From contig NZ_CP085081.1 in assembly GCF_023243115.1 (NCBI RefSeq), positions 2,914,001-2,978,000 of the forward strand: a DNA stretch of 64,000 nt, given 5' to 3'. Source of the DNA: Sediminicoccus sp. KRV36 (GTDB lineage: Bacteria; Pseudomonadota; Alphaproteobacteria; Acetobacterales; Acetobacteraceae). Under the pieces are notes generated by a model. The model worked only from the letters and a program-made list of their open reading frames with translations. It had not been told where the DNA came from and searched no databases. Both the position numbers and the translations under genes were made by a program. Positions 21,051 through 34,544 of this stretch are shown piece after piece (positions within the stretch are counted from its first letter, which is position 1; every line of letters starts with the position of its first letter).

Positions 21051-21731
21051 ATGCTTGAGCTACGCGGCATCACCAGGCGATTCAAGATCGGCCCCACCGA
21101 GCGCACGGTGCTGCACGGCATTGACCTCGACCTCGCCGGGGGCGAGCTGGTGTCGCTGATGGGGGGCTCTGGCTCGGGCAAGACCACCTTCATGAACATC
21201 GTCGGGCTGCTGGACCGGCCCAGTTCGGGCAGTTATCGCATCCGGGGCGAGAATGTGCTGGCCGCCCAGGCGGATGCGCAATCGCTGATGCGCAACAAGA
21301 TGATCGGCTTCGTCTTCCAGCAATTCTTCCTGATGCCGCGCCTCAATGCCTGGCGCAACGTCGCACTCCCGCTGATGTATCGCGGCACGCCGGAGGGCGA
21401 GGCCCGCCGCCGCGCCGAAGCCATGCTGGAGCGCGTGGGGCTGGGCCAGCATCTCAACCATGTGCCCAACATGCTCTCGGGCGGGCAGAAGCAGCGCGTG
21501 GCCATCGCCCGCGCCCTGGTGGGCGAGCCCGCGGTGCTGCTGGCCGATGAGCCGACCGGCGCGCTGGACCCCATCGTCAGCCGCGAGATCATGGGCCTGT
21601 TTGAGGAGATGAACCGTGATCTGGGCGTGCTGGTGCTGATCATCACGCATGATCCGGGGGTTGCCGCGCGCTGCCGGCGCCGGCTGATGCTGACGCAGGG
21701 CCATCTGGCCGACCAGACGGTGCTGGCATGA
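21051..21731 (+). CDS. MacB/LolD-like ABC transporter ATPase
   Basis: A 226-residue ATPase of the MacB/LolD type: Walker A GGSGSGKT, the Q-loop FQQFFLMPRLNAWRNVALPL, signature LSGGQKQRVAIARAL and Walker B VLLADEPTGALD. It precedes a MacB-type permease, a TolC-like channel and an unusual adaptor, so it should drive the tripartite efflux system rather than lipoprotein release. The MacB ATPase and permease are separate genes here, whereas E. coli MacB is one polypeptide. Confidence 0.9.
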   Translation: MLELRGITRRFKIGPTERTVLHGIDLDLAGGELVSLMGGSGSGKTTFMNIVGLLDRPSSGSYRIRGENVLAAQADAQSLMRNKMIGFVFQQFFLMPRLNAWRNVALPLMYRGTPEGEARRRAEAMLERVGLGQHLNHVPNMLSGGQKQRVAIARALVGEPAVLLADEPTGALDPIVSREIMGLFEEMNRDLGVLVLIITHDPGVAARCRRRLMLTQGHLADQTVLA

Positions 21732-21786: not shown

Positions 21787-22959
21787 ATGATCCGCCAGAC
21801 CCTCATGGAAGCGGCCGGCAATCTGCTGGCGGCCTGGCAGCGCAGCCTCCTCGCGCTCATCGGCATCGTGGTGGGCGCGGGGGCGGTGATCGCCATGCTG
21901 CATGCCGGCACGATGGCGCGGCAGGAGACCATTCGCCAGTTTCGCCAGATGGGGACGGATACGCTGATCCTGCGCGCCGACAGCCCGCAGGGCCTGGGCA
22001 ATTTCCGCCTGGGCGACATTGAATCCGTGCCCGCCATGGTGCCCACCGTGGGCGAGATCGCGCCCTTCATGATCGGCGGCGGGCCGGTGACCTATGAGGG
22101 GCAGACGCGCAATGCGGGCTTCATCGGCGCCACGGGCAGCTTCGCCGATGTGGCACGGCTGCCCATGGCGGCGGGGCGGTTCCTCTCCCCGCATGACCGG
22201 TTTGAGCTGCATGCCGTGCTCGGCTCCGACCTCGCGCAGCAATTATCCACCCCCTTCTCGGCGATCCGCGTCGGCTCGCAGATTCGCGTCAGCCGCTACA
22301 TCTTCACCGTGATCGGCGTGATCGAGCCCGTGCTGATGAACCCGATGCTGCCCATGGATGTGAACGGCACGCTGTTCATCTCCTTGCCCAATGCGCGCCG
22401 CGTCATGGCCGTGCCGCAACTCTCCATGGCGGTGGGCCGCCTGCGCGGTGAGGCCGATCCCGAAATCGCCACGCAGCAATTGCAGCAGCATCTGGGCCCC
22501 GGGCTGCGCGACGCGACGCTGAATGTGCTCTCCGCGCGGCAATTGATCGCCGGCATGAACAACCAGGTGCGGCTGGTGGCGCTGCTGCTGGGGGCCGTGG
22601 GCAGCATCGCGCTGGTGCTGGGCGGTGTCGGCGTGATGAACATCATGCTCATGTCCGTGACGGAACGGCGGCGGGAAATCGGCATCCGGCTGGCCATTGG
22701 CGCGCGGCGCCGCGATGTGCGGCGGCTGTTCCTCAGTGAGGCGCTGATCCTCTCGGTGCTGGGGGCGGCGCTTGGCGTGGCGCTGGGCTTTGCCGGCGGC
22801 GTCGGCTTTGCCTGGATGTCGGGCTGGCCCGTGCATTTCTCGCCCATGGCGGCCCCGCTGGGGGCGGGCGTCTCGCTCGCCGTCGGGGTGTTTTTCGGCT
22901 TCTACCCGGCGGTCATGGCCGCGCGGCTGGATCCGATCGAGGCGCTGCGATCGGAGTGA
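21787..22959 (+). CDS. MacB-type ABC transporter permease (FtsX family)
   Basis: A 390-residue inner-membrane protein with the mechanotransmission topology: one N-terminal membrane helix, a large periplasmic domain (about residues 45-265), then three helices with the conserved GGVGVMNIMLMSVTERRREI and GIRLAIGARRRDV coupling blocks. The ATPase gene ends 55 bases upstream. Substrate unknown. Confidence 0.9.
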   Translation: MIRQTLMEAAGNLLAAWQRSLLALIGIVVGAGAVIAMLHAGTMARQETIRQFRQMGTDTLILRADSPQGLGNFRLGDIESVPAMVPTVGEIAPFMIGGGPVTYEGQTRNAGFIGATGSFADVARLPMAAGRFLSPHDRFELHAVLGSDLAQQLSTPFSAIRVGSQIRVSRYIFTVIGVIEPVLMNPMLPMDVNGTLFISLPNARRVMAVPQLSMAVGRLRGEADPEIATQQLQQHLGPGLRDATLNVLSARQLIAGMNNQVRLVALLLGAVGSIALVLGGVGVMNIMLMSVTERRREIGIRLAIGARRRDVRRLFLSEALILSVLGAALGVALGFAGGVGFAWMSGWPVHFSPMAAPLGAGVSLAVGVFFGFYPAVMAARLDPIEALRSE

Positions 22960-23295: not shown

Positions 23296-24792
23296 ATGAA
23301 GGGAGGTGTTGCGATCCTTGCCGCGATGCTGGCCCTTGGCGCTGGCCCGGCCCTCGCGCAGCGTGAAGCGGCCGCACCGCGCGAGCGCCCGGCGCCGCGC
23401 GCCAACACCACCATGCCCTCGACCCATATGCCCGAGGGCAGCATCCCGCTGACCCTGCCCGAGGCCGTGTTTCTCGCGCTGCGCAGCAACCGCGCCATCC
23501 GCAGCCAGTATCTGCAGCGCGTGGCGGACCGGTTTTCGCTGCGCGTGACCGAGGCCACCTTTGATCCGCGCTTCGGCGTCAGTGGCGGCATCACGCGCTC
23601 ACGCACGGGCAACACCAACCTCACGCAGACCACGCTGGGCCCCGTGGTGAACATCGCGACGCCCACGGGCGCGCAATTCCAGTTCGGCTGGCTCGGCGTG
23701 CAGAGCAATGCGCGGGGTGCGTCCCCCAGCGGCCAGGCGCGCGCGACCTTCCAGGTGATCCAGCCGCTGCTGGCCGGCGGCGGCATCGATTACGCCATGG
23801 CCCCCATCCGCATCGGCCGCATCCAGGAGGTGAACAGCCAGCTCCAGCTGAAATCCCTGGTGATTGACCAGATCAGCCAGACCATCGCGGGCTATCGCAC
23901 GCTGCTCCAGGCGCAGGAGCAGCTGCGCATCTCGATCGAGGCGCTGCGCCGCGCACGCGAACTGGCCAGCGTGAACCAGGCGCTCTTCGCCGCGGGGCGC
24001 CTCGCACAGGTCGAACTCATCCAGGCCGAGACCAGCATCGCGCAGCAGGAGCTGGCGCTGCTCGGCGCGCGCAACCAGCATGCGGCAGCGCGGCTGGCCT
24101 TGCTGACGCTGCTGGCGGTGAACCAGAACCAGATGATCTGGGCGGTGGAACGCCCGGCCGCCCAATCCGCCCGCGTGGACCCCGCGCGCGCCCTGGCCAC
24201 CGCCGCCGCCAACCAGCCCGAATATCTGCGCACGCTGCTGGCGGTGGAGGTGAACCGCATCAACCTCGATGTCGCGCGCAATCAGCGGCTTTGGGATGTC
24301 TCGGTGGTGGCGGGCACGGGGCTGGCGGCGCAGCGGGCCGAGATCGCACGCACGCTCGGCGCCCTGGCCGAGGTGCGCAATGATTTCAACATCGGGCTGC
24401 AATTCAACATCCCCATCGGCCAGATCGCGCGCGAACAGCCCGAGGTGAATGCCACCATCGCGCTGCGCCAATCCGAACTCGCCATCGAACAGGCGCGCGA
24501 CCGGCTGCGCCAGTTGGTCGAGGATACGACGCGCAACATTGATACGCTGCGCCGCCAGGCCGAGCTCGCGCGCCGCGCGCGTGAACTTGCCGGGCTCCAG
24601 CTGGAGGCGGAGCTGATCAAGCTGCAGGCCGGGCGTTCCTCCAACTTCCAGGTGGTCTCCTTCCAGGGCTCGCTGCAATCGGCCGAGAGTGCTGAGCTGG
24701 CGGCCGTCATCGCCTATGCCAATGCGCTGACCCAGCTGGACCAGGTGCTGGGCACCACGCTGGACACCTGGCGGATCTCGCTGAATGACTGA
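23296..24792 (+). CDS. TolC family outer-membrane efflux protein
   Basis: A 498-residue outer-membrane channel. A signal peptide (MKGGVAILAAMLALGAGPALAQ) is followed by the two-fold OEP repeat: a first half with LTLPEAVFLALRSNRAIRSQ and a helical section LLQAQEQLRISIEALRRARELASVNQALFAAGR (positions about 200-235), and a second half from EYLRTLLAVEVNRINLDVARN to the helical C terminus. It should complete the tripartite pump with the neighbouring ABC and adaptor genes. It overlaps the adaptor gene by eight bases. Confidence 0.9.
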   Translation: MKGGVAILAAMLALGAGPALAQREAAAPRERPAPRANTTMPSTHMPEGSIPLTLPEAVFLALRSNRAIRSQYLQRVADRFSLRVTEATFDPRFGVSGGITRSRTGNTNLTQTTLGPVVNIATPTGAQFQFGWLGVQSNARGASPSGQARATFQVIQPLLAGGGIDYAMAPIRIGRIQEVNSQLQLKSLVIDQISQTIAGYRTLLQAQEQLRISIEALRRARELASVNQALFAAGRLAQVELIQAETSIAQQELALLGARNQHAAARLALLTLLAVNQNQMIWAVERPAAQSARVDPARALATAAANQPEYLRTLLAVEVNRINLDVARNQRLWDVSVVAGTGLAAQRAEIARTLGALAEVRNDFNIGLQFNIPIGQIAREQPEVNATIALRQSELAIEQARDRLRQLVEDTTRNIDTLRRQAELARRARELAGLQLEAELIKLQAGRSSNFQVVSFQGSLQSAESAELAAVIAYANALTQLDQVLGTTLDTWRISLND

Positions 24793-27034
24793 TCTTCGCG
24801 GGTTTTCGGCCGAGATGACGGCAGCCCCCGCCTTCCATGACCTGGCCCGGCTGGCCGCCATTCTCTGCGCGGCGCCGGCCGCCTATGTGGCGCTGCTGAA
24901 CACCACGCAGCAATGGATCATCGGCGCCGAGGGCATGCAGCCCGCCACGTTGAATTGCCCGCGCGAACACGCCTTCTGCGACGAGACCCTGGCGCGGGAC
25001 GCGCTGACCGAGATCGAGGATCTCTCGCAGCATCCGCGCTTCGCCAACCACCCCCTGGTGACGGGCGAGGAAGCGATCCGCTTCTATGCCGGCATGCCCA
25101 TCCGCAGCATGACGGGCGAGGCGCTCGGCACCATCTGCGTGCTGGACCATGTGCCGCGCCAGCTGACGGAAGCCCAGCGCGATGGCCTGGCCAGGCTCGC
25201 CACCCGCGCCACGGCGGAGCTGGAATTGCGCCGCCAGACGGCCGAGCTCCAGGGGATGAGTGCCAGGCTCGCCGAAAATGAAGCGGCGCTGCGCGGCCTG
25301 AATGAGAGCATCTCCCTCGATTACCGCCGCGCGCTTGATGTGATGACCGATGGCGTGCTGGCCATCGGCCCGGATGCGCGGGTGATGACGGTGAACCCCG
25401 CCGCCGCCCGCATGCTGGGCATTGATGCGCAGGAGGCGATCGGCCAGAGCATCGCCCTGCTGCTGAGCGAGCGTGACGGCACGGATGATTTCATTGACGC
25501 CGTGCTGGCACCCTTGCAGGCCGAGGGGCCGCAAGGCCGCCGCACGCTGGATTTTCCGGGCGAACGCCGGCTTTCCGTCGAAGCCAGCGCCTGGCGCGTG
25601 CAGAGCGGCCCCTTCGCCGGGCGCCCGGCCATCACCGCCGTCTTCGCCGATGTGACCGAGAATGAGCGCCTCCAGGCCGAGCTCGCATCGCAATACACGC
25701 AGTTGCAGGATGCCTTCCTGAAGCTGGAAAACTCGGCCACGCGCTCGGCCCTGATCACGCGGCGCATCGCGCTGTTGCGCATGGCGGCGGTGGTGGCGGC
25801 CTTCCTCGGCGTCTTCGGCGTTGCCGCCTGGACGTGGTTTTCGCCGGGTGAGCCGGATGCCTTCGCGGCGGGCGCGCCCGGCGGCGTGGTGACCATGACG
25901 GCCAGCGCGCAGCCGATCAGCGCGCGCATCGCGGTGGTGGGCGTGCTGGAACCCGGCGCCAATGTCAGCGTCGTCGCACCCTATGACGGCACCGTGCGTG
26001 AGCGGCTGTTCCGCTATGGCGGCGCGGTGACGCAGGGCGATGTGCTGCTGCGGATGGATCGCGGCGAGGTGGAAACCCGCCTGCGCGAGGCGCGCGCCGC
26101 CGAAATCCGCGCCCGCCAGCGCGTCGAGGAATTGCGCGGCTGGGCGACCGGCTTCGAGGCTTCCCGCGCGCGGCGCCAATTGGCCGGGGCCGAGCTGGAG
26201 ACCAGCAATCTGCGCGCCCGCGTGCAGCAGAGCGCGATGCTTCTGAGCCGCGGCATCATCCCGGCGGAGGAGCATCGCAACCTCATCCAGCAGCAGCGCA
26301 ATCAGGAGCTGCAATTCCAGGCGGCGCAGCAGGACCTCGCGGCCACGCTGGATCGTGGCAATGAGCTGCATCTGCGCACCGCCGAACTCGAACTCGCCAA
26401 TGCCGAGACGCGGCTGCGCGAGATCGAGAATGACCTCGGCAATTCCGAATTGCGGGCCCCCGTCTCGGGCGTCGTGCTCATGCCGCCGGAAAACCAGGGC
26501 GGCCAGCAAAGGCGGGAGACGATCGAAGTCGGCTCACGCGTCAGCCGCGGGCAGACCATGTTCGGCATCGGCGATCTGGCGAGCTTCCTGGTGCGCGGCC
26601 AGGTGGATGAGATTGACGTGAACCAGGTGCGCCCCGGCCAGAATGTGACCGTGACGGGCGATGCCTTCGCGGGCGAGGTGCTGACCGGACGCGTCGCATC
26701 CGTGGCCGCGCAGGCGAGCGCCGAGCAGGGGGGGATGGGGCGCGGCATGCCGAATTTCGCCGTCAGCATCGCCATCACCGACCTGACGGCCGAGCAGCGC
26801 GCGCGCCTGGCCGTCGGCATGTCCGCCAGCCTCGCCATCATCACGCATGAGCGCGATGACGCGGTGGTGATGCCGCCCAACGCCGTGCGCGATGAGGGCG
26901 GCACGCGCATCGTCCGCGTGCGGGAAGGCGGGCGGATCGTCTCTCGCCCCGTCACGCTCGGGATCAGCACGCCCGAGGGCGTGGAAATCCGCACCGGGCT
27001 CTCGCCCGGCGATGTGGTGGTGCTGCGCGAATAG
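24785..27034 (+). CDS. GAF-PAS sensor fused to HlyD-type periplasmic adaptor
   Basis: A 749-residue chimera. Residues 18-150 form a GAF domain (AFCDETLARDALTEIEDL; RFYAGMPIRSMTGEALGTIC). Residues about 183-290 form a PAS domain (ALDVMTDGVLAIGPDARVMT; ITAVFADVTENERLQAEL), with a short coiled coil behind it. A single membrane helix spans 328-352. From about 385 to the end the protein is a membrane-fusion adaptor: lipoyl half (VVAPYDGTVRERLFRYGGAV), a long alpha hairpin, second lipoyl half (LRAPVSGVVLMPPENQGGQ) and a beta-barrel/membrane-proximal part. The sensor would lie in the cytoplasm and the adaptor in the periplasm. No kinase, cyclase or DNA-binding output is present. It overlaps the TolC-like gene. 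Confidence 0.9.
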   Translation: MTDLRGFSAEMTAAPAFHDLARLAAILCAAPAAYVALLNTTQQWIIGAEGMQPATLNCPREHAFCDETLARDALTEIEDLSQHPRFANHPLVTGEEAIRFYAGMPIRSMTGEALGTICVLDHVPRQLTEAQRDGLARLATRATAELELRRQTAELQGMSARLAENEAALRGLNESISLDYRRALDVMTDGVLAIGPDARVMTVNPAAARMLGIDAQEAIGQSIALLLSERDGTDDFIDAVLAPLQAEGPQGRRTLDFPGERRLSVEASAWRVQSGPFAGRPAITAVFADVTENERLQAELASQYTQLQDAFLKLENSATRSALITRRIALLRMAAVVAAFLGVFGVAAWTWFSPGEPDAFAAGAPGGVVTMTASAQPISARIAVVGVLEPGANVSVVAPYDGTVRERLFRYGGAVTQGDVLLRMDRGEVETRLREARAAEIRARQRVEELRGWATGFEASRARRQLAGAELETSNLRARVQQSAMLLSRGIIPAEEHRNLIQQQRNQELQFQAAQQDLAATLDRGNELHLRTAELELANAETRLREIENDLGNSELRAPVSGVVLMPPENQGGQQRRETIEVGSRVSRGQTMFGIGDLASFLVRGQVDEIDVNQVRPGQNVTVTGDAFAGEVLTGRVASVAAQASAEQGGMGRGMPNFAVSIAITDLTAEQRARLAVGMSASLAIITHERDDAVVMPPNAVRDEGGTRIVRVREGGRIVSRPVTLGISTPEGVEIRTGLSPGDVVVLRE

Positions 27035-28931: not shown

Positions 28932-28994
28932 AGTCAGGCGTGGTTGACAGTTTTTTCGTCTGAGCGGCCAGAATGGTGTCAATTGCGCGTGACA
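28932..28994. promoter_or_regulatory. PpsR/CrtJ binding sites between crtC and crtE
   Basis: A perfect TGT-N12-ACA palindrome occupies 28977-28994. A one-mismatch copy (AGT-N12-ACA) occupies 28932-28949, centred 45 bases away. The second copy ends in TTGACA (28944-28949), which could double as a -35 box for crtE. A paired arrangement is what PpsR/CrtJ requires in Rhodobacter, and the cluster encodes its own PpsR. Confidence 0.75.
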
Positions 28995-29041
28995 GTCAAT
29001 CAGGAGAGTGCCATCCTCCCGACTTCGAAGGGAGCACTTCC

Positions 29042-29908
29042 ATGGACGCGAACCGCCGCATCGAACGGCAATTGACCGAGGCCCTGGCGCCCGGGGCCAC
29101 GCCGCCCTTGCTGTCACTCGCCATGCATCATGCCGTTTTCCCCGGTGGGGCGCGGGTTCGCCCGCGGCTTTGCGTGGCCGCCGCCGCCGCCTGCGGCATG
29201 GATGACCCCGTGCTGGTGGACGCGACCGCCGCCGCGATCGAGATGCTGCACTGCGCCTCCCTCGTGCATGATGACATGCCCTGCTTCGATGATGCGGCGA
29301 CCCGGCGCGGCCGCCTGACCGTGCATCGCGCCTTCAGCGAGCCGCTGGCCCTGCTGGCCGGGGATGCGCTGATCGTCCTCGCCTTCCAGACCATCGCGCG
29401 CGCCTCGGCCCATTGCGCCCATCCCGAGCGGCTGGGTGCGGTGATGCGAATCGTGGGCGATGCGGTCGGCACGCCGCTCGGCATCGTCGCCGGCCAGGCC
29501 TGGGAATGTGAGACCCGTGTGGATGTGGCCGCCTATCACCGCGCCAAGACCGCGGCCCTCTTTGCCGGCGCCACCATGGCGGGTGCCGCCGCCGCCGGCG
29601 GCCCGGTCGAAGCCTGGAGCCATGTCGGCATGCGCCTGGGCGAGGCCTATCAGGTGGCCGACGATATTGGCGATGCGATTTCGGATGCCGAGCAGCTCGG
29701 CAAGCCGGTCGGCCAGGATGCCGCGCATGACAGGCCGAGCGCGGTGCGCGAACTTGGCCTCAAGGGGGCGGTCAAGCGCCTGGAGGAACTGGCGGATCTG
29801 GCGGTGGAGGCGATTCCCCCCTGCCCCGGCCGCGCCGAATTGGGCGCCTTGATGCGGCATGAGGCGCGGCGCCTCGTGCCCAAGACCCTGCCCGCGCACG
29901 CCTACTGA
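29042..29908 (+). CDS. crtE: Geranylgeranyl diphosphate synthase
   Basis: A 288-residue trans-prenyltransferase that makes the C20 precursor of carotenoids and of the bacteriochlorophyll tail. The first Asp-rich motif is DDMPCFDD (residues 77-84) and the second reads DDIGD, with GGARVRPRLC near the N terminus. ATG 29042 is chosen because GGGAG lies about eight bases upstream. The two PpsR-type sites lie directly upstream. crtF follows two bases after its stop. Confidence 0.93.
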   Translation: MDANRRIERQLTEALAPGATPPLLSLAMHHAVFPGGARVRPRLCVAAAAACGMDDPVLVDATAAAIEMLHCASLVHDDMPCFDDAATRRGRLTVHRAFSEPLALLAGDALIVLAFQTIARASAHCAHPERLGAVMRIVGDAVGTPLGIVAGQAWECETRVDVAAYHRAKTAALFAGATMAGAAAAGGPVEAWSHVGMRLGEAYQVADDIGDAISDAEQLGKPVGQDAAHDRPSAVRELGLKGAVKRLEELADLAVEAIPPCPGRAELGALMRHEARRLVPKTLPAHAY

Positions 29909-29910
29909 GT

Positions 29911-31038
29911 ATGGTGGCCCTGACCTTACCCCTCACCTGGCGGGACCGCTTTGCCGCCTGGCATGACCGGCTGGTGGCCAGCGCCGATTTCCGCCGCTGG
30001 GCCGGCCGCTTTCCGCTGACGCGCGGCATGGCGCGGCGCCGGGCGCGTTCGCTCTTCGATCTGGCGGCGGGGTTTGTCTATTCGCAGGTGCTCTATGCCT
30101 GTGTGCGGCTCGATCTCTTCACCATCCTCGCCGAGGGTCCGCAGGAGGAGCGAGCGCTGGCGCACCGGCTGGGCCTGCCCGCCGATGCGGCCGGGCAATT
30201 GCTGGAAGCGGCCGAGTCGCTCGGCCTGACCAAGCGCCGCAACGGGCGCTGGGCGCTGGGGCAGCTGGGTGCCGTGATGGTGGGCAATACGGCCATCGAA
30301 TCCATGGTGGAGCATCACGCCATGCTCTACGCCGACCTGACGGACCCCGTGGCGCTGCTGCGCGGCGGGCGCGGTGGCGGCCAGCTGGCGGCCTATTGGC
30401 CCTATGCCGGCGTGGCGAAGCCCGAGGCGCTGGGGGATGCGGAAATAGCCCCCTACACGGCGCTGATGGCGGCGTCCCAGCCGATGATCTCCTCAGAAGT
30501 TATTGATACCTATGATTTCTCCAAGCATCGCTGCCTGCTGGATGTGGGCGGTGGCGATGGCAGTTTCCTGCGCGCCGTGGCCGCGGCCACGCCCAGCCTG
30601 AACGTCATCCTGTTCGACCTTCCGGCCGTTGCCGCCCGCGCCGAGTCGCGCTTCGCGGCCGCCGGCCTTGGCGCCCGGGCGCGCGCCGTGGGCGGGGATT
30701 TCCATGCGGGGATCCTGCCCGAGGGGGCTGACATCATCAGCTTCGTCCGTGTCCTGCATGATCATGACGAGTCGGATGTGGAGCGCATGCTGCGCGCCGC
30801 CCACGCCGCCCTGCCGCCCGGCGGCACGCTTCTGGTGGCCGAGCCCATGGCCGAAACCCGAGGCGCCGAAGCCATGGGGGCCGCCTATTTCGGCTTCTAT
30901 CTGCGTGCCATGGGCACCGGCCGGCCGCGCAGCCCGGCCAGGCTCTCTGGCCTGCTGGAGGCAGCGGGTTTCCGCCAGCCGCGCCTTCTGCCGACCGCGA
31001 CCCCGCTGCTCACCCGCGTCCTGGTGGCGACGGCATGA
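29911..31038 (+). CDS. crtF: Hydroxyneurosporene O-methyltransferase
   Basis: A 375-residue SAM-dependent O-methyltransferase that methylates the tertiary hydroxyl made by CrtC. An N-terminal winged-helix dimer domain (FVYSQVLYACVRLDLFTILA) precedes the SAM site LLDVGGGDGSFLRAV and the catalytic-region FVRVLHDHDESDV. The closing block GTGRPRSPARLSGLLEAAGF is typical of carotenoid and acceptor-type methyltransferases. It starts two bases after the crtE stop. Confidence 0.93.
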   Translation: MVALTLPLTWRDRFAAWHDRLVASADFRRWAGRFPLTRGMARRRARSLFDLAAGFVYSQVLYACVRLDLFTILAEGPQEERALAHRLGLPADAAGQLLEAAESLGLTKRRNGRWALGQLGAVMVGNTAIESMVEHHAMLYADLTDPVALLRGGRGGGQLAAYWPYAGVAKPEALGDAEIAPYTALMAASQPMISSEVIDTYDFSKHRCLLDVGGGDGSFLRAVAAATPSLNVILFDLPAVAARAESRFAAAGLGARARAVGGDFHAGILPEGADIISFVRVLHDHDESDVERMLRAAHAALPPGGTLLVAEPMAETRGAEAMGAAYFGFYLRAMGTGRPRSPARLSGLLEAAGFRQPRLLPTATPLLTRVLVATA

Positions 31039-31065
31039 CCCGCTTTTGCTTTAGATCAAATGAAA

Positions 31066-31109
31066 TGTCCATTTTGCTTGACACTCTGCTTTGTCCTTCT
31101 AGATTGACA
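31066..31109 (+). promoter_or_regulatory. Paired perfect PpsR/CrtJ sites upstream of bchC
   Basis: Two perfect TGT-N12-ACA palindromes, 31066-31083 and 31092-31109, are separated by eight bases. They lie between the crtF stop and the GTG of bchC in an unusually AT-rich stretch. The spacing matches the tandem PpsR/CrtJ arrangement known upstream of bchC in Rhodobacter, where it represses under oxygen. Confidence 0.85.
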
Positions 31110-31140
31110 CTTCAATCAAACGGGGGAGGCCTCTAGACCG

Positions 31141-32070
31141 GTGGACACCATTGCAGTCCTCATGACCAAGCCGGAGCAACTCATGCTCCAGCGCGTTGAC
31201 CTTCTCCCCCCGGGCGAGGCGGACGTGGTGGTTCATGTCGAGTGGTCGGGCATCAGCACCGGCACCGAGAAGCTGCTTTGGCTGGGCAAGATGCCGAATT
31301 TCCCCGGCATGGGTTACCCGCTGGTCCCCGGTTACGAGAGCGTCGGCCGCATCGTCGAGGCCGGGCCAAGTTCGGGCCAGACCATCGGAAGCCGCGTCTT
31401 CATCCCTGGCTCACGCGGGTTTCGCGATGTGCGCGGCCTGTTCGGCGGCGCCGCTGGCTGCCTCGTCACACCAGGCGCCCGCGTCATCCCCGTGGATGAA
31501 GCCCTGGGTGACAAGGCCATCCTGCTGGCGCTGGCCGCCACCGCCTATCACGCCATCGTGGACCACCCGCCGGAGCTGATCATCGGCCATGGCGTGCTGG
31601 GCCGCCTGCTGGCGCGCATCACCATCGCCATGGGCCATCCGGCGCCGAATGTCTGGGAACTCAGCGCCGAACGCGCCGAGGGTGCCGAGGGCTACACCGT
31701 GCTGACGCCGGAGAGCGACACCCGCCGCGACTATGCGCGCATCTGCGACGCAAGTGGCGACTCGAACATTCTCGACTCCCTGGTCAGCCGCCTGCGGGCG
31801 GGCGGCGAGATCACGCTGGCGGGCTTCTATGACCGCCTCTCCTTCGCCTTCGCCCCCGCCTTCATGCGCGAGGCCAGCCTGCGCATCGCCGCCGAATGGC
31901 AGGCGCAGGACATGGCTTCGCTCAATGCGCTGATCACGGCGGGCAAGCTCTCGCTCGACCATCTGATCACGCATCGTCAATCGGCCGGTGATGCACCGGA
32001 TGCCTACCGCACCGCCTTCGGCGATGCGCGCTGCCTCAAAATGGTCCTCGACTGGAGAACACAAGCATGA
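31141..32070 (+). CDS. bchC: 3-hydroxyethyl bacteriochlorophyllide a dehydrogenase
   Basis: A 309-residue MDR-type dehydrogenase that oxidises the C3 hydroxyethyl group to acetyl. Landmarks are VEWSGISTGTEKLLW, GYPLVPGYESVGRIVEAG and the short Rossmann region IIGHGVLGRLLARI. GTG start at 31141, behind GGGGGAGG. It overlaps bchX by four bases and heads the bchCXYZ-puf run, a superoperon typical of purple bacteria. Confidence 0.95.
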   Translation: MDTIAVLMTKPEQLMLQRVDLLPPGEADVVVHVEWSGISTGTEKLLWLGKMPNFPGMGYPLVPGYESVGRIVEAGPSSGQTIGSRVFIPGSRGFRDVRGLFGGAAGCLVTPGARVIPVDEALGDKAILLALAATAYHAIVDHPPELIIGHGVLGRLLARITIAMGHPAPNVWELSAERAEGAEGYTVLTPESDTRRDYARICDASGDSNILDSLVSRLRAGGEITLAGFYDRLSFAFAPAFMREASLRIAAEWQAQDMASLNALITAGKLSLDHLITHRQSAGDAPDAYRTAFGDARCLKMVLDWRTQA

Positions 32071-33041
32071 ATGCCGTGACCGGGAATGTTCAGCCTTCCG
32101 ATGAGTCCGCCTCCATGGAAGTGCCGCCGGCCAAGAAGGAGACGCAGATCATCGCGATCTACGGGAAGGGCGGCATCGGCAAGTCCTTCACCCTGGCCAA
32201 TCTCAGCTACATGATGGCGGCGCAGGGCAAGCGCGTGCTGCTCATCGGCTGCGATCCCAAGAGCGACACGACCTCCCTGCTGTTTGGCGGGCGCTCCTGC
32301 CCCACCATCATCGAGACCTCGTCGCGCAAGAAGGCCGCCGGTGAGCAGGTGCAGATCGGCGATGTCTGCTTCAAGCGCGATGGCGTCTTCGCCATGGAGC
32401 TCGGTGGCCCGGAAGTCGGCCGTGGCTGCGGCGGGCGCGGCATCATCCATGGCTTCGAATTGCTGGAGAAGCTGGGCTTCCACCAATGGGATTTCGACTA
32501 CGTCCTGCTCGACTTCCTGGGCGATGTGGTCTGCGGCGGCTTCGGCCTGCCGATCGCCCGCGACATGTGCCAGAAGGTCATCGTCGTCGGCTCGAATGAC
32601 CTGCAGTCGCTGTATGTGGCGAATAATGTGTGCTCGGCGGTGGATTACTTCCGCAAGCTGGGTGGCAATGTCGGTGTCGCCGGTCTCGTCATCAACAAGG
32701 ATGACGGCACGGGTGAGGCGCAGGCCTTCGCGGACGCCGTGGGCATTCCCGTGCTGGCCGCCATTCCGGCCGATGACGACATCCGCCGCAAAAGCGCCAA
32801 TTACGAGATCGTCGGAACACCTGGCGGCCAATGGGCCGGGCTGTTCGAAGCCCTCGGCGTGCAGGTGGCCGAAGCGCCGCCGCTGCGGCCCAACCCGCTG
32901 ACGCATGACGCGCTGCTGAACCTGTTCAAGGGCGATGCGGTCGGCCGTGGCGTGGTGCTGAACCCGGCGACGATGGAAGACATGTGCGGCAGTGAAGTGC
33001 TGAACAAGCCCTCCCTCGAAGTGGTTTACGAGGGCGTCTGA
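32067..33041 (+). CDS. bchX: Chlorophyllide a reductase iron protein BchX
   Basis: ATP-dependent electron donor of chlorophyllide oxidoreductase, a nitrogenase Fe-protein homologue. The 324-residue product has P-loop [24 protein letters not shown] and cluster-ligand segments ELGGPEVGRGCGGRG and [12 protein letters not shown]. It reduces ring B with BchYZ, encoded next. bchY begins three bases after its stop. Confidence 0.96.
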   Translation: MNAVTGNVQPSDESASMEVPPAKKETQIIAIYGKGGIGKSFTLANLSYMMAAQGKRVLLIGCDPKSDTTSLLFGGRSCPTIIETSSRKKAAGEQVQIGDVCFKRDGVFAMELGGPEVGRGCGGRGIIHGFELLEKLGFHQWDFDYVLLDFLGDVVCGGFGLPIARDMCQKVIVVGSNDLQSLYVANNVCSAVDYFRKLGGNVGVAGLVINKDDGTGEAQAFADAVGIPVLAAIPADDDIRRKSANYEIVGTPGGQWAGLFEALGVQVAEAPPLRPNPLTHDALLNLFKGDAVGRGVVLNPATMEDMCGSEVLNKPSLEVVYEGV

Positions 33042-33044
33042 CGC

Positions 33045-34544
33045 ATGGATGTCGCCCCCCCTCCCTCGCCCGATGGTTCGCCCTGCCACGCAGGGCGCGA
33101 GACCTTCGATGCCGCGGCCCGCGCCGCCGGCAAGACGGAGGTCATGGACCAGCTGATGAAGGACTATCCGCGCGGTCCGCATGACCAGCCGCAAAGCATG
33201 TGCCCGGCCTTCGGGTCCTTGCGTGTGGGGCTGCGCATGCGCCGCGTGGCGACCATCCTCTCGGGCTCGGCCTGCTGCGTGTATGGGCTGACCTTCACCT
33301 CGCATTTCTATGGCGCCAAGCGGACGGTGGGCTACGTGCCCTTCAACTCCGAGACGCTCGTCACCGGCAAGCTCTTCGAGGATATCCGCGACGCGGTGAT
33401 CGAGACGGCGAAGCCCGAGGATTATGACGCCGTCATCATCACCAATCTTTGCGTGCCCACGGCCTCCGGCGTGCCGCTGGAACTCCTGCCCAAGGAGATC
33501 AACGGCGTGCGCATCATCGGCATTGACGTGCCGGGCTTTGGCGTGCCGACGCATGCGGAAGCGAAGGACGTGCTGACCGGCGCCATGCTGCGCTATGCCC
33601 GCAACGAGGCCGAGCAAGGCCCCGTGGCGCGTCCGCGCAACCACAAGGAAGCCCGCAACATCTGCCTGATCGGCGAGTTGTTCCCGGCTGATCCGGTGGG
33701 CATCGGCCAGATCCTGGCGCCGATGGGCCTCGCCGCCGGCGCGCAGGCGCCCTGCCGCGAGTGGCGGGATCTCTATTCGGCCCTGGACTCCGTGGCCGTT
33801 GCCGCGCTGCATCCCTTCTACACGGCGAGTGTCCGCGAATTCCGCGCCGCCGGCCGCAACGTGGTCGGCTCCGGCCCGGTCGGCGTGGATGGCACGGCCG
33901 CCTGGATCGAGGCCATCGGTATCGCCGCCGGCGTCCCGGAATCCGAGCGCGAAGCCGCCCGCCAGGCCGTGCTGCCGGCGATCCGCGCGGCCCTGGCCGC
34001 CAACCCCATCAAGGCGCGCATCACCGTCTCCGGCTATGAAGGCTCCGAACTTCTGGTCGCCCGCCTGCTGATCGAAGCCGGCGCGGAAGTGCCCTATGTC
34101 GGTACCGCCTGCCCGCGCACCGAATGGAGTGCGGCCGACGCCGAATGGCTCAAGGCCCAGGGCTGCCACGTCCAGTATCGCGCCTCGCTCGAGCAGGACA
34201 TGGCGGCGATGAAGGAAGCCAAGCCCGACCTCGCACTCGGCACCACGCCGCTGGTGCAGAAGGCGAAGGAGATGGGCATCCCCGCCCTCTACTTCACGAA
34301 CATGGTCAGCGCGCGGCCGCTGTTTTCCATCGCGGGTGCGGCCTCCATGGCCGGCATCGTCGCGGCGCAGACGCAAGGGCGCGAGCGCTTCGGCCGCATG
34401 GTCAGCTTCTTCGAAGGTGTCGGCACGCCCGATGGCGCGGGCTACGGCTTCCGCGAGAAGCCGGTGGACCCGCCAGGTTTCCGCGACCGCCAGCGCAAGC
34501 TGCGCGCGGCCAAGGCGAAATCCGAAGAAGCGGTGGGCACCTGA
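33045..34544 (+). CDS. bchY: Chlorophyllide a reductase subunit Y
   Basis: A 499-residue catalytic subunit of chlorophyllide oxidoreductase, related to nitrogenase NifD. The N-terminal [18 protein letters not shown] and [19 protein letters not shown] carry the expected cysteine ligands, followed by [19 protein letters not shown] and [14 protein letters not shown]. It pairs with BchZ, whose ATG overlaps the bchY stop by one base. Confidence 0.96.

Follow-up and report, generated by a model that had tools for sequence, protein, structure and literature searches.

The stretch of DNA analysed here (64,000 nucleotides of Sediminicoccus sp. KRV36, contig NZ_CP085081.1, positions 2,914,001 to 2,978,000; hereafter the window) encodes, in a single polypeptide of 749 residues, a GAF domain, a PAS domain, a coiled coil, one membrane helix and a periplasmic adaptor of the MacA type. 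The gene for this sensor-adaptor fusion lies in a four-gene unit with those for an ATP-binding cassette (ABC) ATPase, an ABC permease and a TolC-type outer-membrane channel, and the protein belongs to a family in which the helical linkers vary in length by steps of seven residues and purifying selection is observed. We consider it fairly probable that a MacAB-type pump is here controlled from the inside out, at the post-translational level, by the adaptor's own cytoplasmic input module.

A sensor and an adaptor in one polypeptide

The fusion is divided as follows:

24785..27034, forward strand: sensor-adaptor fusion, 749 residues, single open reading frame without internal stop
24833..25216, forward strand: GAF domain (residues 17-144; Pfam E = 4.6e-11)
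25169..25342, forward strand: unbroken helix joining GAF to PAS (residues 129-186; AlphaFold2 model and GAF-PAS spacing)
25319..25666, forward strand: PAS domain (residues 179-294; Pfam, DVTE motif at 289-292)
25655..25828, forward strand: helix 291-348, coiled coil running into membrane helix 328-346 (model, hydropathy, spacing and conservation)
25874..27031, forward strand: MacA-type adaptor body, periplasmic (residues 364-749)

Besides GAF, the Pfam matches of the fusion were PAS at residues 179-250 (E = 2.4e-10), PAS_4 at 184-294 (E = 1.8e-6), HlyD_D23 at 511-645 (E = 6.4e-14) and HlyD_3 at 556-678 (E = 3.1e-16), all five exceeding the Pfam cut-off, and the protein passed the NCBIfam model TIGR01730 with 100.4 bits (cut-off 94.9). 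As in a membrane fusion protein, the adaptor body comprises HlyD, lipoyl, hairpin and beta-barrel parts after one membrane helix; its best solved match is MacA (4dk0 by profile, 9qgy_G first by fold), and that of the GAF domain is 4zmu, a diguanylate cyclase. The strongest membrane segment by hydropathy (residues 328-346) lies between sensor and adaptor, and a second hydrophobic stretch (20-38) falls within GAF. Since Arg326 and Arg327 stand just before the membrane helix, the N-terminal part of the fusion should be cytoplasmic, and about 327 residues, made up of GAF, PAS and the coiled coil, are predicted to lie there. An AlphaFold2 model built with 71 sequences (mean predicted local distance difference test score 86.5) contains unbroken helices at residues 129-186, from GAF to PAS, and 291-347, the latter leading from PAS along the coiled coil and on into the membrane segment. 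The order GAF-PAS-membrane helix-HlyD adaptor, which a first-pass annotation had read from the DNA, is thus confirmed by the reading frame, Pfam, hydropathy and the relatives, with the membrane helix now placed at 328-346. The same annotation had noted that no output domain was present; in agreement with this, no kinase, cyclase or helix-turn-helix family exceeded its cut-off in Pfam or NCBIfam, and HisKA/HATPase and GGDEF/EAL were absent from the Pfam matches at E <= 1e-3. The NCBIfam whole-kinase models for AtoS and WalK matched weakly through the PAS region, far below their cut-offs.

Relatives, linker register and selection

The spacing between D289 and L307, which joins PAS to the coiled coil, takes only two values among the 128 PAS-bearing relatives, 18 residues in 55 and 25 in 73 (by alignment; a regular expression found the spacing in 123 of the 128), and the spacings L307-E315 (8 residues) and E315-R332 (17 residues, coiled coil to membrane) are the same in all 128. 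Between GAF and PAS (A139-G190), 59 rows allowed a measurement of the spacing, among them 3 without a GAF label, and 69 rows have no anchor; the spacing was 51 in 25 rows, 44 in 12, 37 in 14 and 30 in 5, which places 56 of the 59 on heptad steps, the exceptions being P0014 and L017 (40) and P0029 (33). L017 belongs to the lineage with a relaxed GAF described below. Steps of seven in linker length are also how sensor kinases hold their signalling helices in register, and the conserved residues L296, L300, Q303, L307, A310 and L314 follow the 4-3 spacing of a coiled-coil core. No heptad steps were seen at three control spacings in the same alignment: the periplasmic linker R332-V384 (50 to 59, and 66) and the PAS loops N204-G275 (68 to 76, 84 and 94) and N204-G220 (12, 14, 16, 18 and 38). 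After clustering at 85%, D289-L307 was 18 in 12 rows and 25 in 40, and on a tree of these 52 rows the 18/25 state needs six changes, at least five of them forced by well-supported branches; the chance that six changes are all multiples of seven is about 1e-5, a rough figure that takes the seven classes as equal, from which the true indel spectrum may differ. In a LOV-sensor kinase, activity depends on linker length with a heptad period, and a single added residue inverts the response (PMC6798134).

The family comprises at least 148 distinct relatives, whose adaptor halves score above 200 bits in the family model. They were gathered by protein searches, in which the best 8000 candidates by shared words were scored and the best 120 matches listed, by one scan of genome contigs and by four genome-group searches; distinctness refers to the adaptor half alone, frames running from stop to stop in loci are counted, and two members (P0125 and P0129) are truncated at the start. 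According to the family models, 72 carry PAS, 56 GAF and PAS, 2 GAF only and 18 neither, so that PAS is present in 128 of the 148, 56 of which have at least a remnant GAF. Among the 18, three assignments are unsafe: P0131 is probably truncated, P0159 is composite, and L095 has a GAF domain by Pfam. P0159 has an EEP domain behind the adaptor and looks like a read through degraded frames. L095 (also L118; genome G997), a distant member from the phylum, carries a canonical GAF (Pfam E = 3.3e-12), a helix and a transmembrane helix and no PAS; its GAF is of a different type, sited where the family GAF sits. The two GAF-only members, P0138 and L038 (also L122), have a GAF-like stretch by the family model and no PAS, Pfam recognised no GAF in L038, and both are probably remnants; P0138 groups on the tree as sister of the sensorless L013. 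In 71 aligned members Pfam recognised PAS_4 in 70, PAS in 65, GAF_2 in 24 and GAF in 15, indicating that many of the 56 GAF domains have diverged.

Matches were found in 11 of 299 genomes of the window's family (E <= 1e-30, own genome included), in 14 of 385 of the class (E <= 1e-25), six of which cover PAS too (the own genome and five of other families), and in 25 of 398 of the phylum, where those above 200 bits, the own genome aside, are without PAS by the family models. Named sources include Roseococcus, Sediminicoccus, Rubritepida, Sabulicella, Falsiroseomonas, Roseomonas, Humitalea, Rhodovarius and Stella, and the matches listed include full-length relatives that are 75-86% identical and of independent origin. 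For a tree of adaptor halves, the 144 of 148 that remained without P0159 and without halves shorter than 300 residues were clustered at 85% to 66 rows. On this tree, whose base is made unsure by long branches, architecture requires 12 changes; PAS is deep and mostly kept, and GAF is patchy. In a Rubritepida metagenome-assembled genome (L032 / L065) the adaptor gene lies in two frames on one contig, perhaps through a frameshift or sequencing error.

Rough Nei-Gojobori counts of the ratio of nonsynonymous to synonymous rates (dN/dS) over 13 pairs gave 0.05-0.30 for PAS in 12 pairs (0.47 for the L022 pair) and 0.09-0.24 for the adaptor. For GAF, the ratio was 0.10-0.27 in all five pairs among the window, L015, L016 and L018, and 0.47-0.70 in the other eight (L017-L021, L019-L020, and the window with L017, L019, L020, L021, L022 and L045). 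D289 and E292 of the DVT(E) motif of PAS are present in 52 of 52 clustered rows. The GAF of the fusion belongs to the common FYAG group, in which C65 is generic to the subtype (a cysteine in all 32 GAFs from outside the family); C58, mostly confined to the family, is a cysteine in 30 of its 56 GAF rows and in 2 of the 32 outside ones, 9 of which are gapped at this position in the alignment. C58 and C65, seven residues apart, are a candidate redox pair, a weak lead that is suggestive only.

The pump locus

The remaining genes of the unit, and a small frame between them, are:

21051..21731, forward strand: ABC ATPase of MacB/LolD type, 226 residues (Pfam ABC_tran; Walker A, LSGGQ, Walker B and H-loop)
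21787..22959, forward strand: ABC permease, 390 residues, MacB_PCD and FtsX, four predicted membrane helices
22913..23137, reverse strand: lipoprotein-like open reading frame, 74 residues, antisense between the permease and channel genes and overlapping the permease 3' end
23296..24792, forward strand: TolC-type outer-membrane channel, 498 residues (Pfam OEP E = 1.9e-32)

The permease matched MacB_PCD (E = 1.1e-26) and FtsX (E = 3.8e-20) in Pfam, as a MacB-type permease does, and three MacB entries lead its PDB matches (5nik, E = 2e-40), with 5xu1 fourth (E = 5.1e-31); for the ATPase, 5xu1, which we take to be Spr0694-0695, came first (E = 1.3e-61), followed by MacB 5lj9. The channel matched TIGR01844 below the cut-off, its N-terminus resembles a signal sequence by eye and is without a lipobox, and the 3' end of its gene overlaps the start of the adaptor gene by 8 bases. 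A MacA-type adaptor and a TolC-type channel are thus encoded beside an ABC pair, in line with the neighbours named in the first-pass annotation and with their Pfam and PDB matches. Because ATPase and permease are separate genes, the system is MacAB-like with a split MacB and is not filed as MacB; judged by its genes, the locus looks like a tripartite ABC exporter of the MacAB-TolC type. The idea that the fusion always neighbours a MacB-type ABC pair and TolC held for the most part: ATPase, permease and channel genes stand beside the adaptor in 22 of 30 loci, all from the one genome-contig scan, and 12 of 12 further regions hold all four genes (L122 and L123 come from the same contigs as L038 and L043). 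In seven of the other eight loci the contig breaks off no more than about 150 bases upstream of the match to channel or adaptor; in L026, about 2.4 kb upstream of the channel contain no ABC pair. Gene order differs between loci, and the four genes remain together with or without the sensor.

A sensor routinely encoded as a separate protein was not seen in 15 loci, most of which have sensorless adaptors: the family PAS and GAF models (E <= 0.01) found there only the adaptors themselves and one PAS match (0.005) in L036, and since the canonical GAF of L095 and the GAF domain of L126 both went unrecognised by these models, a nearby gene for an unlike GAF could escape them too.

Frames matching the small antisense one occupy the equivalent place in 14 of 14 relatives (L015-L017, L019-L021, L023, L025, L029, L030, L033, L034, L037 and L042); they are about 74-100 residues long, have a lipobox followed by A.P..L and PPI.LP-like motifs, and, when 8 sequences are compared pairwise, show a dN/dS of 0.14-0.59 in all 28 pairs. 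Next to the channel gene of L026, in divergent orientation, there is similar sequence (E = 2e-24), with weaker matches in L024 (3e-7) and L043 (1e-4); the same search also gave chance-level matches elsewhere. No NCBIfam match was found at E <= 1e-3 and no PDB match at E <= 10. The TolC of E. coli, which has no lipid anchor, has a lipoprotein partner, YbjP, seen on MacAB-TolC, which is dispensable for efflux when conditions are standard (PMC13082787); a relation to YbjP was looked for solely through the PDB sequence search, which returned nothing. As a guess by analogy, the small frame might encode an accessory protein, a channel partner parallel to YbjP.

After the operon, at 28973-34544, the window contains genes of the photosynthesis type (Pfam: polyprenyl synthase, O-methyltransferase), presumably crtE, crtF, bchC, bchX and bchY judging by order and look. 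As a hint to signal or substrate this neighbourhood was rejected: among L015-L044, several of which end too early to judge, L019 and L021 are the only loci where crtE to bchX come next, and the adjacency is therefore treated as lineage-level. A link to defence was likewise discarded, the PADLOC matches to ATPase and permease looking like generic ABC/LolE similarity.

Precedents, proposed mechanism and rival explanations

MacAB-TolC, Spr0693-0695 and YknWXYZ resemble the system in their MacB-type ATPase and permease and in a MacA-type adaptor with one N-terminal membrane helix, and MacAB-TolC also shares the TolC-type channel. MacA is described as having no cytoplasmic domain (PMC13328181), against about 327 cytoplasmic residues here. 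The first-pass annotation assumed that adaptors normally have a short cytoplasmic part or none; a 2021 review describes adaptors of ABC and major facilitator superfamily transporters as typically having sizable cytoplasmic domains of unknown structure, without naming sensors (PMC8277102). In the text consulted of two other adaptor reviews, one of them PMC13328181, neither a GAF nor a PAS domain is mentioned, and among open-access titles and the starts of abstracts, a scope that takes in few subscription journals, no MacA-type adaptor bearing either domain was named.

The further suggestion that this is not a described kind of system is put in doubt by two precedents. Alg44 of the Pseudomonas alginate machinery combines a cytoplasmic PilZ domain that binds cyclic di-GMP, a membrane region and a periplasmic domain like that of membrane fusion proteins, and exerts post-translational control (PMC3815931), but it has PilZ in place of GAF/PAS and serves a polysaccharide polymerase, not an ABC pump; PilZ gave no Pfam match in the fusion at E <= 1e-3. 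GAF joined to HlyD/biotin_lipoyl was reported in 2015 from secondary SecA_DEAD loci, with a sensory role suggested; those loci are described as being without an ABC transporter (PMC4452313), whereas the neighbours of the fusion are an ABC ATPase, a permease and an OEP channel. The own genome has such a SecA_DEAD locus (L130, C1:817500-833500), away from the window:

L130 3909-5750, reverse strand: GAF-HlyD protein, 613 residues (Pfam GAF E = 1e-4, just over the cut-off; L126)
L130 5754-7898, reverse strand: SecA_DEAD
L130 7754-9925, reverse strand: Peptidase_M50

This GAF-HlyD protein has no PAS by Pfam, and its only significant match to the fusion (P0001) covers about 115 residues of the adaptor, with 30% identity. 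Pfam found GAF in one (L126) of the five longest other HlyD_3-bearing frames of the genome and none in the remaining four. One cell thus holds two unlike GAF-HlyD fusions, the sensor-adaptor fusion and the L130 protein.

LapD likewise senses a cytoplasmic messenger and has a periplasmic output, that is, inside-out signalling, but this output controls a periplasmic protease and not transport (PMC3032545). Sensor kinases and diguanylate cyclases with GAF and PAS (e.g. 4zmu) are alike in GAF subtype, PAS and coiled-coil linkers in heptads; the fusion differs in having neither kinase nor cyclase and in a helix that ends in a membrane anchor. In type I secretion, the N-terminal cytoplasmic part of HlyD is needed for TolC recruitment and ATPase activation (PMC4446572), but the part deleted there is a helix of 45 residues that binds the substrate signal (PMC13328181) and contains no sensor domain. 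Taken by its sequence, the pump may work like MacAB-TolC with a kinase-type input, and sensor-bearing adaptors have precedents.

In the mechanism that we favour, a cytoplasmic signal would be received by PAS, joined in this lineage by GAF; it would alter the twist or packing of the continuous coiled coil, the change would be transmitted into the adaptor membrane helix, which touches the transporter, and the membrane helix would thereby set either ATPase activity or the pump's state of assembly. We infer a ligand-binding or redox-responsive role for PAS and GAF, a movement of the helix, and the ATPase as its target. The membrane helix of MacA is stated in print to be essential for the ATPase activity of MacB. 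The ligand- or redox-gating interpretation of the first-pass annotation is as a whole partly supported, in that heptad-quantised helices and purifying selection tie the sensor to the membrane anchor.

Several observations weigh against inside-out control. The adaptor of MacA type is a hexamer (PMC8062640), to which a dimeric coiled coil has no simple match. The predicted template-modelling score of the AlphaFold2 model (0.42) makes the mutual placement of its domains unreliable and leaves only single domains trustworthy. After clustering, the GAF-PAS spacing is 51 in 11 of 15 rows (44, 37, 30 and 30 in the remaining four), so that its heptad steps rest mostly on close relatives, and the dN/dS values of the coiled coil (0.07-0.53, 32 codons) and the membrane helix (0-0.51, 24 codons) are noisy. 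The 15 safe sensorless relatives have at most 107 residues ahead of the adaptor body, GAF is optional among PAS-bearing relatives, and the sensor is dispensable across the whole pump family. From the substitution counts, PAS appears constrained throughout, and GAF constrained in the window's lineage and relaxed or degenerate in the sister lineage. The PAS invariants N204, D289 and T291 are generic, with no cofactor signature among them. Register conservation is evidence of a continuous coiled coil and not of signalling or movement, heptads being kept by a strut too.

Some of these points would fit equally a scaffold, in which PAS and GAF sense nothing and serve only to dimerise the adaptor or to dock it, whether onto itself or onto the ATPase, with the coiled coil as a structural strut. 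PAS domains often dimerise, and the missing cofactor signature, the conserved heptads, the sensorless relatives and the decay of GAF in the sister lineage all speak for it. However, a strut need not retain a PAS domain with its DVT(E) motif or a constrained GAF in one lineage, and a different canonical GAF is present at the equivalent place in L095; we regard a scaffold as rather unlikely. That signals run outside-in, the adaptor reporting pump load or periplasmic substrate and PAS/GAF meeting a separate cytoplasmic regulator, seems improbable, though no search aimed at a regulator gene beside the operon was made. One helix could carry signals both ways, and the effect of MacA on MacB has been ascribed to the reporting of periplasmic substrate, but the same source reports no link between substrate and MacB ATPase activity (PMC8062640). 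A partner would be needed in such a scheme, no output domain being fused. Against it also speaks that PAS and GAF are usually input modules.

It is very improbable that GAF-PAS is an old fusion under relaxed selection and without present function: the eight pairs with high GAF ratios and the GAF remnant of L038 that Pfam does not recognise would suit such decay, but the low ratios of PAS and adaptor, those of GAF in the five pairs of the window's lineage, and a helix register kept in 128 of 128 relatives argue against it, and for PAS decay is already disfavoured. An artefact, whether frameshift, assembly join or mis-called start, might be suspected because high G+C makes long spurious frames common in the window; the independent full-length relatives refute a joining of two genes, the frame has no internal stop, and no separate PAS or GAF frame of the family type occurred in the 15 loci searched, leaving this explanation a practically negligible probability.

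Returning to inside-out control, we see an even chance that a wider statement holds: cytoplasmic ligands would directly switch a whole family of tripartite ABC pumps by way of a rigid coiled coil, locked in register, that has the adaptor membrane helix at its end. The signalling helix of kinases would be re-used here to control transport, and the input modules on one pump would be exchangeable (PAS, GAF-PAS, or the other GAF of L095). Elsewhere, adaptors that sense directly are described as doing so in the periplasm, as for metal ions in CusB (PMC13328181). If inside-out control is true, the activity of the pump would respond without new gene expression. The membrane helix of the MacA-type adaptor is unresolved in recent structures (PMC8062640), and the sensor is attached, in helical register, to exactly this helix, which is reported to switch the ATPase; a ligand, or an altered linker length, could act on this lever. 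The family also provides, in environmental bacteria, a natural series on one kind of pump, with no sensor, PAS, GAF-PAS or another GAF.

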